In this document: one piece after another, positions 50,917 to 57,460 of the stretch
Layout of the letters: each line of letters starts with the position of its first letter
Position numbering within the stretch: position 1 is the stretch's first letter
Source of the DNA: Sulfurihydrogenibium sp. YO3AOP1
Lineage (GTDB): Bacteria > Aquificota > Aquificia > Aquificales > Hydrogenothermaceae
Direction of reading: 5' to 3'
Assembly (NCBI RefSeq): GCF_000020325.1
Contig: NC_010730.1
Location: forward strand, 1,137,501-1,201,500
DNA length: 64,000 nt
Translations under genes and position numbers: made by a program
Notes under the pieces: model-generated
Database searches by the model: none
What the model was told of the DNA's origin: nothing
Seen by the model: the letters and a program-made list of their open reading frames with translations, nothing else

Positions 50917-50973
50917 CTTAAACTTTCTTAATATACTCTTAAATTTTCTTAAAATGACGTAATCAAATCTTAA
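50917..50973 (+). promoter_or_regulatory. Helically phased CTTAA array (OmpR/PhoB-type operator candidate)
   Basis: CTTAA occurs at 50917, 50927, 50938, 50948 and 50969, with CGTAA at 50958. The steps are 10, 11, 10, 10 and 11 bases, one helix turn each. TATAAT at 50996-51001 follows 22 bases after the last copy, and no -35 box is needed at such activator sites. The gene started is the OlsB-like acyltransferase at 51030. Confidence 0.6.
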
Positions 50974-50995
50974 TCAAAATTTAAAAATAAACCTC

Positions 50996-51001
50996 TATAA
51001 T
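50996..51001 (+). promoter_or_regulatory. -10 box of the lipid-modification operon
   Basis: TATAAT, 28 bases before the first ATG. The -35 region overlaps the CTTAA array rather than a TTGACA match. Confidence 0.5.
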
Positions 51002-51029: not shown

Positions 51030-51872
51030 ATGATAGGCGTAGAAAAGTTAAAAAACTTTAAATCTTTTAAAATTCCTGTAAATCCAACAGACATTTACAA
51101 GTACAAGCTCAAAAACTTTAGACCTAAAATAAAATTACAGTTTGAAACAAGTAAATACATTGTTAAAACAGCAGAATCTCATACAGAGCTGTTAAAAGCT
51201 TTAAAATTAAGGCATAGAGTATTTTTTGAAAAGACAAAGAAAATAGTCAAATTAGACAGTGATAAATTCGATATGATAGCAGACCATCTACTGCTAATAG
51301 ATAAAAATTCAAAAGAAGTGGTTGGAACATATCGTTTGATTGGGTCAAACTTCTCTAAGGAGTTTTATACAGAATCTGAATTTTTTATTGATAAGATTAA
51401 AAGCATAAAAGACCCAATACTTGAAATGGGAAGGGCATGTATAGATAGCAATCACAGAAATGGAATAGCATTGTCACTGCTTTGGAGAGGTATCAGCCAG
51501 TATGTTTACACAGGTGGATATAAGTATCTCTTTGGATGTTCAAGCATTTTTCAAATAGATATAGAAAAAGTAGCATTTATTTACATGTATCTAAAATCAA
51601 AATACTACCTGTCAGAGTTAGAAGCTTACCCAAAGTTTAACTACAAAATTTTAAGCTTGAAGAAGTATACAGAATTTTTAGAATACATAGAACCAAACTA
51701 CGAAAAAGCATCAAATTATATTCCGCCACTCCTTGAAGGATATTTAAAAGCAGGTGCAAAGGTTTGTAGTGAGCCAGCATTGGATAAAAAATTTAGATGT
51801 ATTGACTTTGTAACAATCTTAGACACAGAAAATTTAACTAAAACGTTTGAAAAGAAATACAAGAAGGAATGA
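51030..51872 (+). CDS. GNAT-fold N-acyltransferase, OlsB-like
   Basis: The 280-residue protein resembles the OlsB/COG3176 family, which attaches 3-hydroxyacyl chains to ornithine or other amines. Supporting stretches are LLKALKLRHRVFFEKTKK, VVGTYRLI, ILEMGRACIDSNHRNGIALS and LFGCSSI. Autoinducer synthases share this fold. The next gene, a PlsC-like O-acyltransferase overlapping by four bases, matches the known OlsB-OlsA pairing that makes ornithine lipids. A GGAGG ribosome-binding site is present. Substrate is inferred, not shown. Confidence 0.78.
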   Translation: MIGVEKLKNFKSFKIPVNPTDIYKYKLKNFRPKIKLQFETSKYIVKTAESHTELLKALKLRHRVFFEKTKKIVKLDSDKFDMIADHLLLIDKNSKEVVGTYRLIGSNFSKEFYTESEFFIDKIKSIKDPILEMGRACIDSNHRNGIALSLLWRGISQYVYTGGYKYLFGCSSIFQIDIEKVAFIYMYLKSKYYLSELEAYPKFNYKILSLKKYTEFLEYIEPNYEKASNYIPPLLEGYLKAGAKVCSEPALDKKFRCIDFVTILDTENLTKTFEKKYKKE

Positions 51873-52645
51873 GCTATCTAAGACTCTTTTACAGGCTTAA
51901 CATTTTTATTGTTTTACTGATTTTATTTTTACTGATTTCTTTATCAATAGATTTGACTGTACGAAGCCAGTACAAAAAAAAGAGATTGTTTTTAAAAAAT
52001 GCAGGAATTTTCAGAGATATAGCCTGCAGACTTTACAAAATAAATGTCTTGATAGACAACGCTTCAATCCATAAATTGGATAAAAACTATCTTATTCTTT
52101 CAAACCATCTTTCCTACTTAGACATTATAGCTTTGATGTATAACAATAAAAATGCCTTTGTCTCAACCACAGAAGTTAGAGAATCTTTTTTGATTGGAAA
52201 GCTTGCACAGTATGGAGGAAGTGTTTTTATAGACAGAAAAAATAAAAACGGTATAAAAGAAGAGATAGAAATGATTAAAGATTTATTGCATAATGGTTTT
52301 AACGTTGTTATCTTTCCGGAAGGGACTACATCTAATGGCGAATGTGTTTTACCTTTTAAATCTTCATTTTTAGAACTTGCTTTCCTGGTTGATGCTCTTG
52401 TAGCTCCATGCTGTATAAAGTATACAAAAGTTAATGATGGACCTGTAAATGAGAAAAACAGAGATTTACTTTACTACTATGGTGATATGGAATTTTTCAG
52501 TCATTTTTTTACTTTTTTAAAGAATGTAAAAAGTGTGTTTATAGAAGTTAAGTTTTTAAAGCCAGAAGACCCAGAAAATTTTAAAGATAGAAAAGAGCTT
52601 TCAAAATACTTACATTCAAAAATAGAAAAATGCTACAAAAGTTAA
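51869..52645 (+). CDS. PlsC/OlsA-like O-acyltransferase
   Basis: The 258-residue protein has an N-terminal membrane helix (LNIFIVLLILFLLISLSI). The acyltransferase motif 1 is modified to SNHLSYLDII (HX4D), and VFIDRKNKNG and VVIFPEGTTSNG follow. The family transfers acyl chains to lysophosphatidate or lyso-ornithine lipid. A second, more typical PlsC is encoded at 58158, so this copy may serve the specialised lipid. It is overlapped by its neighbours on both sides. Confidence 0.82.
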   Translation: MSYLRLFYRLNIFIVLLILFLLISLSIDLTVRSQYKKKRLFLKNAGIFRDIACRLYKINVLIDNASIHKLDKNYLILSNHLSYLDIIALMYNNKNAFVSTTEVRESFLIGKLAQYGGSVFIDRKNKNGIKEEIEMIKDLLHNGFNVVIFPEGTTSNGECVLPFKSSFLELAFLVDALVAPCCIKYTKVNDGPVNEKNRDLLYYYGDMEFFSHFFTFLKNVKSVFIEVKFLKPEDPENFKDRKELSKYLHSKIEKCYKS

Positions 52646-53319
52646 ACATCTCTATACACGATGTTACTAAATCAAACCTTGAAAAAGTTTACTATCTCAA
52701 AGACATCTTAGAAGACTTAGGTGTTAGTAAAATCACATATCTATTGATACCATACTATCATGAAAAAGAAAATCTGTTAGAGATAAAAGAAGACTTAGAA
52801 AACTTTAAAGTTAATGGAGAGTTTGTATTACACGGTTATAGCCACAAATCCGGCTGTTTTAAAGGACTGAAAAGTTTATTTACAAACTGTGAAGGCGAGT
52901 TTTTATACTACCAAGACTTGGAAGACAGACTAAAAAAGGGTTTAGAGATTCTAAATAAACTTAGCATACACCCAAAAGGCTTTATACCACCTGCATGGTT
53001 GATGAGAAAAGAAGACTATAAAGTACTAAAACAGTATGGATTTAGATTTACAGAAGACCGATTGTATATTTATGACTTACAAAAAGATAAAAAAATCTTA
53101 TCACCGGTTTTAAGCTTTGGCAGTAGGGGAATAGTTGAGGTTGTATCTAAATTATCTTTTAAAGCTTATTTTTATGCATTAAGACTTTCCAAAATAAACG
53201 TCATAAGAATTGCTCTACACCCGGTAGATGCCATAGATGAAGACAAAATAAAATTAATCGTCAAGACATTGAAAGGCAAAGATTTTAAATATATGCATCT
53301 TCAAGATTTGATAAAATAA
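52630..53319 (+). CDS. DUF2334-type polysaccharide deacetylase-like protein
   Basis: The 229-residue protein shows ISIHDVTKSN (Asp), EFVLHGYSHKSG (metal-binding His pair) and FIPPAWLMRKEDYKVL. It ends with RIALHPVDAIDED. This is the pattern of the DUF2334/NodB-like deacetylase group that removes acetyl groups from sugars. No signal peptide is seen, so it may be cytoplasmic and act on a glycolipid precursor. Its start overlaps the acyltransferase end by 16 bases. Confidence 0.75.
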   Translation: MLQKLNISIHDVTKSNLEKVYYLKDILEDLGVSKITYLLIPYYHEKENLLEIKEDLENFKVNGEFVLHGYSHKSGCFKGLKSLFTNCEGEFLYYQDLEDRLKKGLEILNKLSIHPKGFIPPAWLMRKEDYKVLKQYGFRFTEDRLYIYDLQKDKKILSPVLSFGSRGIVEVVSKLSFKAYFYALRLSKINVIRIALHPVDAIDEDKIKLIVKTLKGKDFKYMHLQDLIK

Positions 53320-53351: not shown

Positions 53352-53727
53352 ATGATACATTGGTTTTGTCCTTACTGCTGGAAAGAAATTCAAGAAAACG
53401 ACAAAATCTGTCCTTATTGTAAAGCAGATGTAAGCTTTTTTTACTCAATTGGACTACGATGATAAACTTATTCTTGCACTTAATAATCCAATAACACAAA
53501 ACAGAATGGTTGTTATAGAAATCCTTGGCAAAAGAAAAACCAAGAAAGCTGTTTCTAAGCTTTGTAAAATGCTTTTTGATAAGAGAGATACTTATGAGCT
53601 TATAGAGATAGCCAAAGCCTTGCAGAACATTGGAACAGATGAAGTTTTAGAATGTTTAAAGGAAAGAAAGAAAATTCAAGATAATATAATCTTAGAAAAG
53701 TTCTTAGATCAAATTATCAAAATTTAA
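53352..53727 (+). pseudogene. Double zinc ribbon/HEAT-like small protein gene with frameshift
   Basis: From the ATG at 53352 the frame encodes WFCPYCWKEIQE and KICPYCKADVSF (two CxxC pairs) and then stops. A second frame from 53449 encodes LDYDDKLILALNNP and a helical HEAT-repeat-like region ending LEKFLDQIIKI. Removing one T from the T7 run at 53436-53442 joins them (SFFTQLDYDDK) into a protein of about 125 residues. No function is known. Confidence 0.7.
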
Positions 53728-53733
53728 CAAAAC

Positions 53734-53770
53734 CTTAATAATTCTCTAACACTTTTAATGTATCCTTTAA
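53734..53770 (+). promoter_or_regulatory. Second, weaker phased TTAA cluster
   Basis: TTAA/CTAA words at 53735, 53746, 53755 and 53767 are spaced 11, 9 and 12 bases, upstream of the PHP-glycosyltransferase gene. The spacing is less regular than in the array at 50917, so a shared operator is only a suggestion. Confidence 0.3.
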
Positions 53771-53795: not shown

Positions 53796-56109
53796 ATGAT
53801 TAAAGTTGACCTACATTTACACTCAGAAGCTTCAAATAAGCCCGGTGGTTATCTTTCTAATAAACTTAAAATAAGTGAAAGCTATGTTAAGCCGAAAAAA
53901 GTTTATGAAAAATTAAAAGAAAGAGGAATGAGCTTATTTACAATTACAGACCACGACACAATAGATGGCTGCTTAGAAATCGCACACTTGCCAAATGTAT
54001 TTATATCAGAAGAGATCACAACTTACTTTCCAGAAGATAGAGCAAAAATCCACGTAATTGTCATAGATATAAACGAAAAAATTCACCAAGATATTCAAAA
54101 AGTTAGAGGAAATATATACGAGCTTGTTGATTACTTACAAAAAAATAATATCACTCATATACTTGCCCATCCCCTGTATAACATGGACGGAAAGCTTACA
54201 AAATCGCACATTGAAAAGTTAGGACTTTTATTTGACAACTGGGAAATTTTAAACGGCACAAGGTCTAAGACTTCTTCTCAGATTACAGAAAAAATTGCAA
54301 ATTATTTTAGTCAAAAAGATGTAATTGAAAGATTGTCAAATAAGTATTTTTAACAAAAGAAGAAGAGGCTTTATATCCTTTACAGGTGGTTCTGACGACC
54401 ATGGAGGACTTGATTTAGGCACAGGTTACACAATTGCAGAGGGAGAGACAGTTGAGGACTTAAAAAATGCAATCAATGAAGGAAAAACTCGTTACGATGG
54501 GATATACGGAAATCCAAAAAGATTGACCCATATGGTTATGAACATCGCAAAAGAAGGCTTAAAAAGACAGTACAACCTTGGAAATTTTGGAGTGCTTTTA
54601 GATTATCTTTTTGAACCAAGGCAACAATCAACCTACATTTTAGACCAAATCCTTGGTAGAAATAGCATTTTAAACTTTATTGAAACAGTAATCAAGCACA
54701 AAGGAGAAGTTTCACAAGACAATCATGAGAATATACACAGATTTTTTATAAATCTAATACCCTACTACATCTCAAACATAAGAAATCAAAAAAATTTAGA
54801 TTTTGACAAATTAAGCATGTACTTAGGAAAAATTTTTATATTCTCGTCTTCTTACTTATTTTACGTTTCAGTTTACAAACAAAGGGCAGATGAAAAGAAT
54901 TTTTCTAAAAAAATCTATAAAGAATTTTTCGATAATGGTCATGTGAAAGGAAAAATAGCATATCTTACAGATACATTTTTTGAGATTAACGGAGTATCAA
55001 GAACAACCCAAAAACTACTAAACTTAGCAAAAGAAGAAAATTTAGACATTAAATTTATCATTTCATACGACAAAAGTATAGAAGAAGATGAACATCTAAT
55101 AAACTTTAAGCCGATGTTTACGTTCAACCTTCCTGAGTATGAAGAAATTCCGATAAACATTCCAAACTTTTTAGAACTTTTAGATTACATAGAGCAAAAT
55201 AACTTTGACGTAATCTACGCTCCAACTCCGGGACCTGTTGGCTTGATGGGATTTGCTATATCCAAAATCCTTGGCATACCATTTGTTACTACATTCCATA
55301 CAGATTTTCCAGAGTATGTTTACAGATACACAAGCGAGCCAGCATTAAAAGAATTTGTAGCCCAAGGATTGAAATTTGTCTACAACAATAGTGAGAAAGT
55401 GTTAGTTCCATCAAGATATTACTTTCAAAAGCTTGCTGAAATGGGTGTTGAACCAGAAAAGATGGAAGTTTTCAAAAGAGGAGTAAATCAAGAAAAATTC
55501 AATCCATCGTTTAGGGATAAAAACTTTTGGAAAAAATACGACCCTAAGTACAATTTTGAACAAGTTGTATTATACGTTGGAAGAGTTGCAAAAGAGAAGG
55601 ATTTAGATGTTTTTATAGAAGTTTATGAACTGATGAAAAACAATCCAAAGGTTAAGTTTGCGATCGTAGGAGATGGTCCGTATTTAAAAGAGTTAAAACA
55701 AACTTACGAAGGAAAGATAATATTCACAGGATTTCTTGAAGGAGAAGAGTTATCTAAAGCCTTTGCATCTGCTGACTTTTTCCTATTTCCAAGCACAACA
55801 GAAACATTTGGAAATGTAGTGCTTGAAGCTATGGCAAGCGGTTTAATTCCTCTTGTGTCACACAAAGGAGCATCCAAGGAAAATATTGTTGAAGACATCA
55901 CAGGGTTTGTTATTTCCAATAACGACCCAAAAGAATACAAATTAATCCTTGAAAGATTGATAGAAAATCCAGTTTTATCACAAAAAATAAGAAATAACAT
56001 TTTAAAATTAGTCTCAAATCTTGGTGAAAGAAATCTATTGCTTGAGATGGTTGAAAAATTTAGCTTAGATTATCTTTCAAAAAAACAGCTTGAGGAGGTT
56101 TATGTATGA
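53796..56109 (+). pseudogene. PHP-domain/GT4 glycosyltransferase fusion with a one-base frameshift
   Basis: The N-terminal frame (53796-54353) has the PHP motifs DLHLHSEAS, ITDHDTIDG and ILAHPLYN. The second frame has the missing PHP block FTGGSDDHGGLDLG and then a GT4 transferase. The transferase part contains GVSRTTQKLLNLA, FVTTFHTDFPEY, VLYVGRVAKEKDLD and STTETFGNVVLEAMASG. Removing one T from the T5 run at 54347-54351 gives one protein of about 770 residues. Such fusions couple a phosphoesterase with sugar transfer. The gene may be functional if the shift is an error. Confidence 0.82.
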
Positions 56110-56342
56110 GGTCAAGAAAATCCTACTACCCAATAGACATAACTCCAACAGTCAAAATGAGAGACAATGACTGGTGGATAGCTAAAGATATCCAAAGTGA
56201 GATTATAAAGAGAAAAAATAAATATGTAAGCCTTGTATACATTGGAAGAACAGCCAATAAGTATAATCTTAGCAAAAAAACAAGCTTTGGATTTAAACTG
56301 TATCACAAAAAACTTGTTGATTTAATTATTAATGAATTATGA
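56106..56342 (+). CDS. Small conserved-looking protein of unknown function
   Basis: The 78-residue basic protein contains DNDWWIAKDIQSEIIKRK and FGFKLYHKKLVDLIINEL. It overlaps both neighbours by four bases (ATGA), so it is translationally coupled to two glycosyltransferase genes. I do not recognise a family. It has no membrane segment or signal. It may be a small partner of one of the transferases, which is only inferred from position. Confidence 0.6.
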   Translation: MRSRKSYYPIDITPTVKMRDNDWWIAKDIQSEIIKRKNKYVSLVYIGRTANKYNLSKKTSFGFKLYHKKLVDLIINEL

Positions 56343-57460
56343 GACTATTAGATATAACACATTTCTACTCTGAAAAAGGGGGAGGGATTAAAACATACAT
56401 TCAAAACAAGATAGAATACCTAAAAGATAAAGAAGATATTCAGCACACATTAATAATTCCAGGGGAAGAGGATGGGGAACTTTTTTTAAAAAGAACCAAA
56501 ATAATTAAAATCAAATCTCCCTACTTTCCATTTAATAACCACTATAGACTTTTGATTAATCCTGTTAAACTTTCAAACATATTAAAGCAAGAAAAACCGG
56601 ATGTAGTAGAAATAGGCTCTCCTTTTTTAATTCCAACAGTTGTAAATTCAAAAAAAGAAAGTCTAAAATATAAAACCGTAGGTTTTTTTCATTCAAACTT
56701 AGAAAGTGTCGTTGAAAATATAAACAAAATTAAAGGAAAAATTATAGTTAAAAAAATTGCAAGGTCCTACACATATAAAACTTACTCAAATTTAGACCTT
56801 GTTATTGCTCCATCTTACTACGTTAAAAACTATCTTTTAGATATTGGTGTGCAAAATGTTGAAGTTATCTATCATGGTATAGATGTTGATTTTTTTGATA
56901 AAATTCAGCCAGAGGAAGACCTTAGACAAAAATTCAATATTCCTGTTAACAAAATAGTTTTTATTTATGTTGGAAGGTTTTCGGAAGACAAAAATTTTGA
57001 TGAGCTGATAAAAATTATAAAATTGCTTTTACAAATCCAACCAAATAGATTTTTCTTTTTACTCATAGGAGCCGGACCGTTAAAAGATTATGCTTTAAGC
57101 AGTTTAAATAGTAATTCTTTAATTCTTGATTATATCAGCGATAGGGAATATTTAGTTAAAATGCTTAAAATGTCAGATATTTTTATTACAGCATCTAAAA
57201 CTGATACTTTTGGACTATCTTTGGTTGAAGCCCAAGCCTGCGGACTTCCGGTTTTAGCTTACAACAAGACTTCCTTTCCGGAGATAGTATTTTATAAAAA
57301 GTATCTCGCGACGGATGTTTTGGACTTTGCATCTAAGGCTTTAAAGTTAAGCAATAGCTTAAACAATCTTGATAGAAATTTAATGAAAAATTTTATAAGA
57401 AATGAGTTTGATTTAAATAAGAATTTCGACAAGCTTTTTAGGATTTATAGAGAGCTATAG
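56339..57460 (+). CDS. GT4-family glycosyltransferase
   Basis: The 373-residue protein has the GT-B layout. Supporting stretches are an N-terminal EKGGGIKTYIQNKIEYL, FFHSNLESVV, VIYHGIDVDFFDK, IYVGRFSEDKNFDELI, and the donor-site motif TASKTDTFGLSLVEAQACGLP (Glu-x7-Glu-like). It resembles mannosyl/glucosyl lipid transferases. As the last gene of the operon, it may modify the lipids made by the acyltransferases upstream. Confidence 0.85.
   Translation: MRLLDITHFYSEKGGGIKTYIQNKIEYLKDKEDIQHTLIIPGEEDGELFLKRTKIIKIKSPYFPFNNHYRLLINPVKLSNILKQEKPDVVEIGSPFLIPTVVNSKKESLKYKTVGFFHSNLESVVENINKIKGKIIVKKIARSYTYKTYSNLDLVIAPSYYVKNYLLDIGVQNVEVIYHGIDVDFFDKIQPEEDLRQKFNIPVNKIVFIYVGRFSEDKNFDELIKIIKLLLQIQPNRFFFLLIGAGPLKDYALSSLNSNSLILDYISDREYLVKMLKMSDIFITASKTDTFGLSLVEAQACGLPVLAYNKTSFPEIVFYKKYLATDVLDFASKALKLSNSLNNLDRNLMKNFIRNEFDLNKNFDKLFRIYREL

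Follow-up and report, generated by a model that had tools for sequence, protein, structure and literature searches.

A predicted Pho-type operator at the promoter of a putative lipid-remodelling operon in Sulfurihydrogenibium sp. YO3AOP1

The 64,000-nucleotide window analysed here, taken from the one-contig, 1,838,442-bp genome of Sulfurihydrogenibium sp. YO3AOP1, carries an array of tandem direct repeats ahead of an operon of lipid-modification genes, and this array is very probably a Pho-type activator site of the PhoB/OmpR class that overlaps the promoter of genes for lipid remodelling. Judged from the sequence, the cell probably swaps its membrane lipids once phosphate is exhausted. An earlier note on this DNA had guessed at a Pho-type operator, and the guess gains support from the sharing of the array with the psiE-phoB, porin and pstS sites and from its retention at orthologous ols genes. 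The features are collected in Table 1.

Table 1. Promoter elements and genes of the lipid-modification operon, in window coordinates
Feature	Positions	Strand	Basis and remarks
Six tandem Pho-type units, CTTAAACT CTTAATAT CTTAAATT CTTAAAAT CGTAATCA CTTAATCA	50917..50976	+	Read from letters, pattern search, profile
Seventh unit, degenerate, TTTAAAAA	50980..50987	+	16-nt spacing rule from related promoters; occupies the -35 position
-10 box, TATAAT	50996..51001	+	28 nt separate the box from the start codon of the first gene
OlsB-like N-acyltransferase	51030..51872	+	Acetyltransf_5; best NCBIfam match OlsB, E=3.7e-37, under curated cut-off
OlsA-like O-acyltransferase	51869..52645	+	PF01553; best NCBIfam match OlsA, E=1.4e-34, under cut-off
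DUF2334 deacetylase, GpgD-like	52630..53319	+	NF053788, E=2.2e-28, under cut-off
Short HEAT-repeat protein, 92 aa, TTG start	53449..53727	+	
Second, internal Pho-type promoter, ATTATCAA TTTAACAA CTTAATAA TCTAACAC with TATCCT at +16	53713..53766	+	
Putative metallohydrolase (PHP/CehA-like) and GT4 glycosyltransferase fusion, two frames	53796..56109	+	
GT4 glycosyltransferase, GpgS-like	56339..57460	+	NF053787, E=2.4e-62, under cut-off

In the window, CTTAA is read at 50917, 50927, 50938, 50948 and 50969 and CGTAA at 50958, with unit spacings of 10, 11, 10, 10 and 11 bp (mean 10.4 bp) in A/T-rich surroundings. The earlier note had described six such words one helical turn apart, followed by TATAAT 22 bases after the last; all six words and the box lie where it had placed them, but the array is longer than six and continues into a seventh, degenerate unit. 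At least three tandem direct repeats with a 10-11 bp period, a feature of PhoB/OmpR-class operators, are thus present. The window units consist of CTTAA followed by A or T, without the C of CTTAAC, and three of the five spacings are 10 bp, not 11 bp. With its 10-bp spacings and no C at position 6, the olsB-side site may be weaker or differently tuned.

Three exact copies of CTTAA at 10-11 bp spacing occur at a single place in the genome, which is the window array, and the reversed-pattern control of this search gave no matches in 21 genomes. A triple pattern of TTAA alone was dropped as unspecific (27 matches against 16 in the control). An independent profile was built solely on arrays of a second family within the order (G019 and G025). 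As these training arrays had been collected with a CTTAA pattern, the profile tests whether the signal carries over from one clade to another and which genes lie downstream; it does not test the CTTAA letters themselves. With six units the window array scored 27.7 and ranked first in the 64 kb (runner-up 7.2; simulations at most 14.0), and with four units it scored 19.2 and again ranked first (runner-up 9.1; simulations at most 15.6). The same profile placed the psiE-phoB site first within its own locus, at 29.9.

The distance between the repeats and the -10 box is fixed. A TAnnnT hexamer starts exactly 16 nt past the start of the last repeat in all 17 listed promoters, a count in which the last unit was, in several promoters, partly picked by eye among degenerate candidates. 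In a second count, on arrays selected with no knowledge of the -10 box, TAnnnT lay at exactly +16 in 11 of 14, and the next commonest offset, +2, is produced by the repeat itself. It was through this rule in related promoters that the seventh unit of the window was recognised, and by way of this unit the window shows the fixed -10 distance and the overlap with the -35 position. At psiE-phoB, a TATAAT at +21 was considered as the -10 box; the TAAAAT at +16 fits the rule and is the preferred candidate. A CTTAA triple in G012 was set aside as probable chance, with no TAnnnT after it. At six loci the mRNAs of psiE-phoB and of gpgD-like genes look leaderless, with only approximately 7 nt between the -10 box and the start codon.

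The earlier note had the operon starting with OlsB-like and OlsA-like acyltransferases; these are indeed the best-matching NCBIfam families, but both proteins fall under the equivalog cut-offs (128.5 against 350 bits for OlsB and 119.4 against 300 bits for OlsA). The GpgS-like and GpgD-like proteins are homologous to their namesakes and likewise score under the equivalog cut-offs (210.8 against 480 and 99.3 against 280 bits). A composite model of repeats plus -10 box, with a simulation maximum of 16.7, found two sites above that value in the 64 kb: the ols promoter at 28.8 and the internal promoter at 23.5. The latter lies 29 bp ahead of the start of the metallohydrolase-GT4 gene and has counterparts in G002, G004 and G006. 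The metallohydrolase-GT4 gene is a single open reading frame in G002 (771 aa) and G004 (768 aa), and in the window it is broken by a 2-nt deletion near 54338 (within 54330-54345), which is either a real mutation of the strain or a sequencing error.

Arrays of the same layout lie ahead of psiE-phoB, a porin gene and pstS in this genome. The psiE-phoB promoter reads ATTAACAA-CTTAACCA-CTTAATAA-CTAAACAA, and the strongest site detected in the genome is this promoter of the PhoB-like gene itself. A composite pattern of four repeats, allowing no more than one mismatch, occurs seven times in the genome: at psiE-phoB, porin, pstS and ols, at a TonB receptor downstream of phoX, and also at a P-type ATPase operon and at a rhodanese gene. 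The site before the rhodanese-domain gene (C1:1314858) is near-perfect, and the one before the operon of small proteins and a P-type (E1-E2) ATPase (C1:1380638) is kept in G002 and G005. Weak matches near phoD (C1:768826) and at C1:1386275 were not used, having no good downstream gene at promoter distance. Between C1:763000 and 776000, phoX, the TonB receptor, exbD/tonB-like genes, phoD, porin and pstSCAB-phoU-phoR are clustered, an arrangement like a phosphate-scavenging island that includes a TonB system. The PhoB-like regulator has TIGR02154 as its best family (E=1e-68; 230.9 bits, under the cut-off of 296.2), and the PhoR-like kinase adjoining phoU matches TIGR02966 (E=8e-84; 281.4 bits, under the cut-off of 334.2).

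In related genomes, arrays lie upstream of phoX, porin, a lipoprotein/TonB-receptor operon, psiE-phoB and pstS, and also upstream of DUF2334/GpgD-like operons whose orthologue in the window is the distal half of its operon; units CTTAACCA at 11 bp occur in relatives. The earlier note had proposed looking for the array at phosphate-regulated genes and at orthologous operons, where its lack would speak against the reading; it occurs at both. With a model trained on non-lipid Pho genes alone, each of the nine genomes that encode an OlsB homologue showed a site upstream of its ols genes, with scores of 17-32; in the wrong-strand control, the 95 and 99 percent quantiles were 8.2 and 16.3. The more distant congeners G001, G003, G004 and G006 have weaker ols sites (17-20 against 26.5). 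Of 222 upstream regions taken as controls, those with the highest scores belong almost exclusively to phosphate or lipid genes. The distance from the -10 box to the start codon of the first gene is 27-29 nt in the seven genomes of the window's genus, 31 nt in G015 and 23 nt in G010. The close relatives G002 and G005 retain the array while the DNA immediately upstream differs. In the congener G004, the ols operon adjoins phoR-phoU-pstB-pstA-pstC-pstS-porin, and an array-headed psiE-phoB lies beyond. G010, from another genus, has an OlsF above the equivalog cut-off (730.5 against 620 bits), and a Pho-type array precedes the gene; from its family match, OlsF is a different predicted route to ornithine lipid behind the same promoter type. 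After phoR, a gene for a protein of 160-170 aa (L086, 6628-7116, and L087) has a Pho-type promoter that is among the strongest in the genus, and the L086 protein has no Pfam match.

Across 112 genomes of the order, a strict pattern was matched 34 times and its reversed control not once. Thirty of the 34 sites were inspected at translated starts: 12 precede gpgD-like genes, eight phoX, four porin-like genes and one psiE-phoB, and the remainder lie before an ATPase-operon gene, small uncharacterised proteins or a contig edge. In species genomes from all phyla, three copies of CTTAAC followed at 16 nt by TAnnnT were found at 55 loci, a scan that was conditioned on the -10 box and had no matched control. 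Fifty open reading frames downstream of these loci include approximately ten matches to PstS, five to PstC/PstA, four to PhoX and three to PHO4 transporters, together with two to phosphate-selective porins and one to a PhoB-type regulator. Firestonebacteria, Ignavibacteria, Desulfotomaculum, Planctomycetes and Elusimicrobia are among the groups in which the pattern precedes genes for phosphate transport and phosphatases. This distribution suggests one Pho promoter code across many phyla.

The Bacillus subtilis PhoP box consists of TTAACA repeats with a period of approximately 11 bp at Pho promoters, and is alike in its TTAAC-type repeats. The cyanobacterial SphR Pho box comprises at least three tandem 8-bp repeats of consensus CTTAACCT with 3-bp linkers, giving an 11-bp period, and lies upstream of pst and phosphatase genes in Synechocystis PCC 6803 and others (PMC1906773). 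The repeat described here resembles that consensus, whereas the window units have CTTAA plus A/T, are spaced at both 10 and 11 bp and number up to seven; the phylum is also different, and control of lipid genes is predicted in addition. In E. coli, the PhoB box has tandem 11-bp direct repeats that bind a regulator of the PhoB/OmpR class and lie approximately 10 bp before the -10 box (PMC1906773); its layout is alike, but its letters, of the CTGTCAT type as quoted in PMC8528852, are different.

Ornithine lipids under phosphate limitation are well known in other phyla (PMC12186959). Phosphorus-free lipids made when phosphate limits are attributed to OlsBA/OlsF and PlcP-Agt, and Pho boxes are reported before the glycolipid genes of P. 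aeruginosa (PMC12186959, PMC8528852). The present system differs in belonging to a thermophile of another phylum and in that the ornithine-lipid genes share an operon with GpgD/GpgS-like genes and the metallohydrolase-GT4 fusion instead of PlcP-Agt. In the gpgSDF genes of Pseudomonas aeruginosa, GpgS and GpgD make GlcN-PG (PMC12713373, in whose main text the term 'PhoB' is absent); the pairing of a GT4 enzyme with a DUF2334 deacetylase is alike, with the window matches under the equivalog cut-offs.

The regulator of the array is assigned by association, and the site could instead be the operator of another OmpR-family regulator, responding to stress, metal or the envelope, with the phosphate genes sharing the array through motif similarity. 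The genome encodes six PF00486 proteins, i.e. five OmpR-family regulators besides the PhoB-like one, and the layout also occurs before the P-type ATPase operon and the rhodanese gene, so that control may not be by phosphate exclusively. This explanation is nevertheless improbable, given that the strongest site in the genome is the PhoB-like gene's own promoter, that matches across the order lie nearly all before phoX, porin-like, psiE-phoB or gpgD-like genes, that the strict pattern precedes many PstS, PstC, PhoX and PHO4 genes across phyla, and that the repeats resemble the published SphR box in sequence.

Intrinsic bending by helically phased A/T tracts was the alternative offered by the earlier note; the tracts would then form an upstream element that needs no regulator of its own, and bending would suit a mean spacing near the helical repeat in an A/T-rich region. 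It leaves unexplained why the letters are fixed, why the repeats are strand-polar and why they keep an exact 16-nt phase to the -10 box. The conserved letters C-T-T-A-A-(C) contain a TpA step, and neither the uninterrupted tracts nor the lack of polarity expected of phased A-tracts is seen in the letters of the window and the relatives' arrays; relatives from another family keep CTTAAC while their spacers vary and contain C and G. Bending is accordingly a very unlikely explanation. A chance run of AT-rich words in intergenic DNA is less likely still: the window has approximately 32 percent GC and TTAA triples at this spacing are not rare, but the CTTAA triple is unique in the genome, the reversed control has no match in 21 genomes, the profile score is far beyond the simulations and the array is conserved in orthologues.

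Given the computed site, its geometry, its sharing with phosphate genes and its conservation at ols genes, the Pho-type activator site is the preferred reading, from which we infer PhoB binding, induction at low phosphate and the lipid products as follows. Phosphate limitation would lead the PhoR-like kinase, encoded beside pst-phoU, to phosphorylate the PhoB-like response regulator, which would bind head to tail along the tandem 10-11 bp repeats. In place of a -35 box, the last repeat would stand 16 nt ahead of the -10 box, so that bound PhoB would recruit RNA polymerase and turn on olsB-olsA-gpgD-(HEAT)-GT4-GT4, and the second Pho promoter, ahead of the metallohydrolase-GT4 gene, would boost the distal genes. 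The predicted products are ornithine lipids and an aminosugar glycolipid, which would substitute for phospholipids; a phosphorus-free acceptor is proposed for the GpgS/GpgD-like enzymes because GlcN-PG would save no phosphate. A broader reading, possible rather than probable, is that one Pho code (tandem CTTAAC at 11 bp, 16 nt, TAnnnT), common to many phyla, captured a full phosphate-sparing lipid programme in this thermophile order, with ornithine lipids made by OlsBA/OlsF and a GpgD/GpgS-like and metallohydrolase-GT4 pathway leading to a phosphorus-free glucosamine glycolipid, not GlcN-PG.

No relevant paper came up when full texts were searched for a Pho regulon of this phylum, and both the regulon and the placing of GpgD/GpgS-like glycolipid genes under predicted Pho control seem to be new. 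The hot-spring lipid literature describes ornithine lipids and glycolipids in streamer communities, and no organism-level phosphate experiment for this group was found in it. The exact promoter rule, combining repeat spacing with the 16-nt phase, can be used to predict phosphate-regulated genes across the order. The result would also link the remodelling of membrane lipids to phosphate in thermophiles that are a source of hot-spring lipid biomarkers, and it suggests a possible role in phosphate saving for genes of the GpgD/GpgS type.
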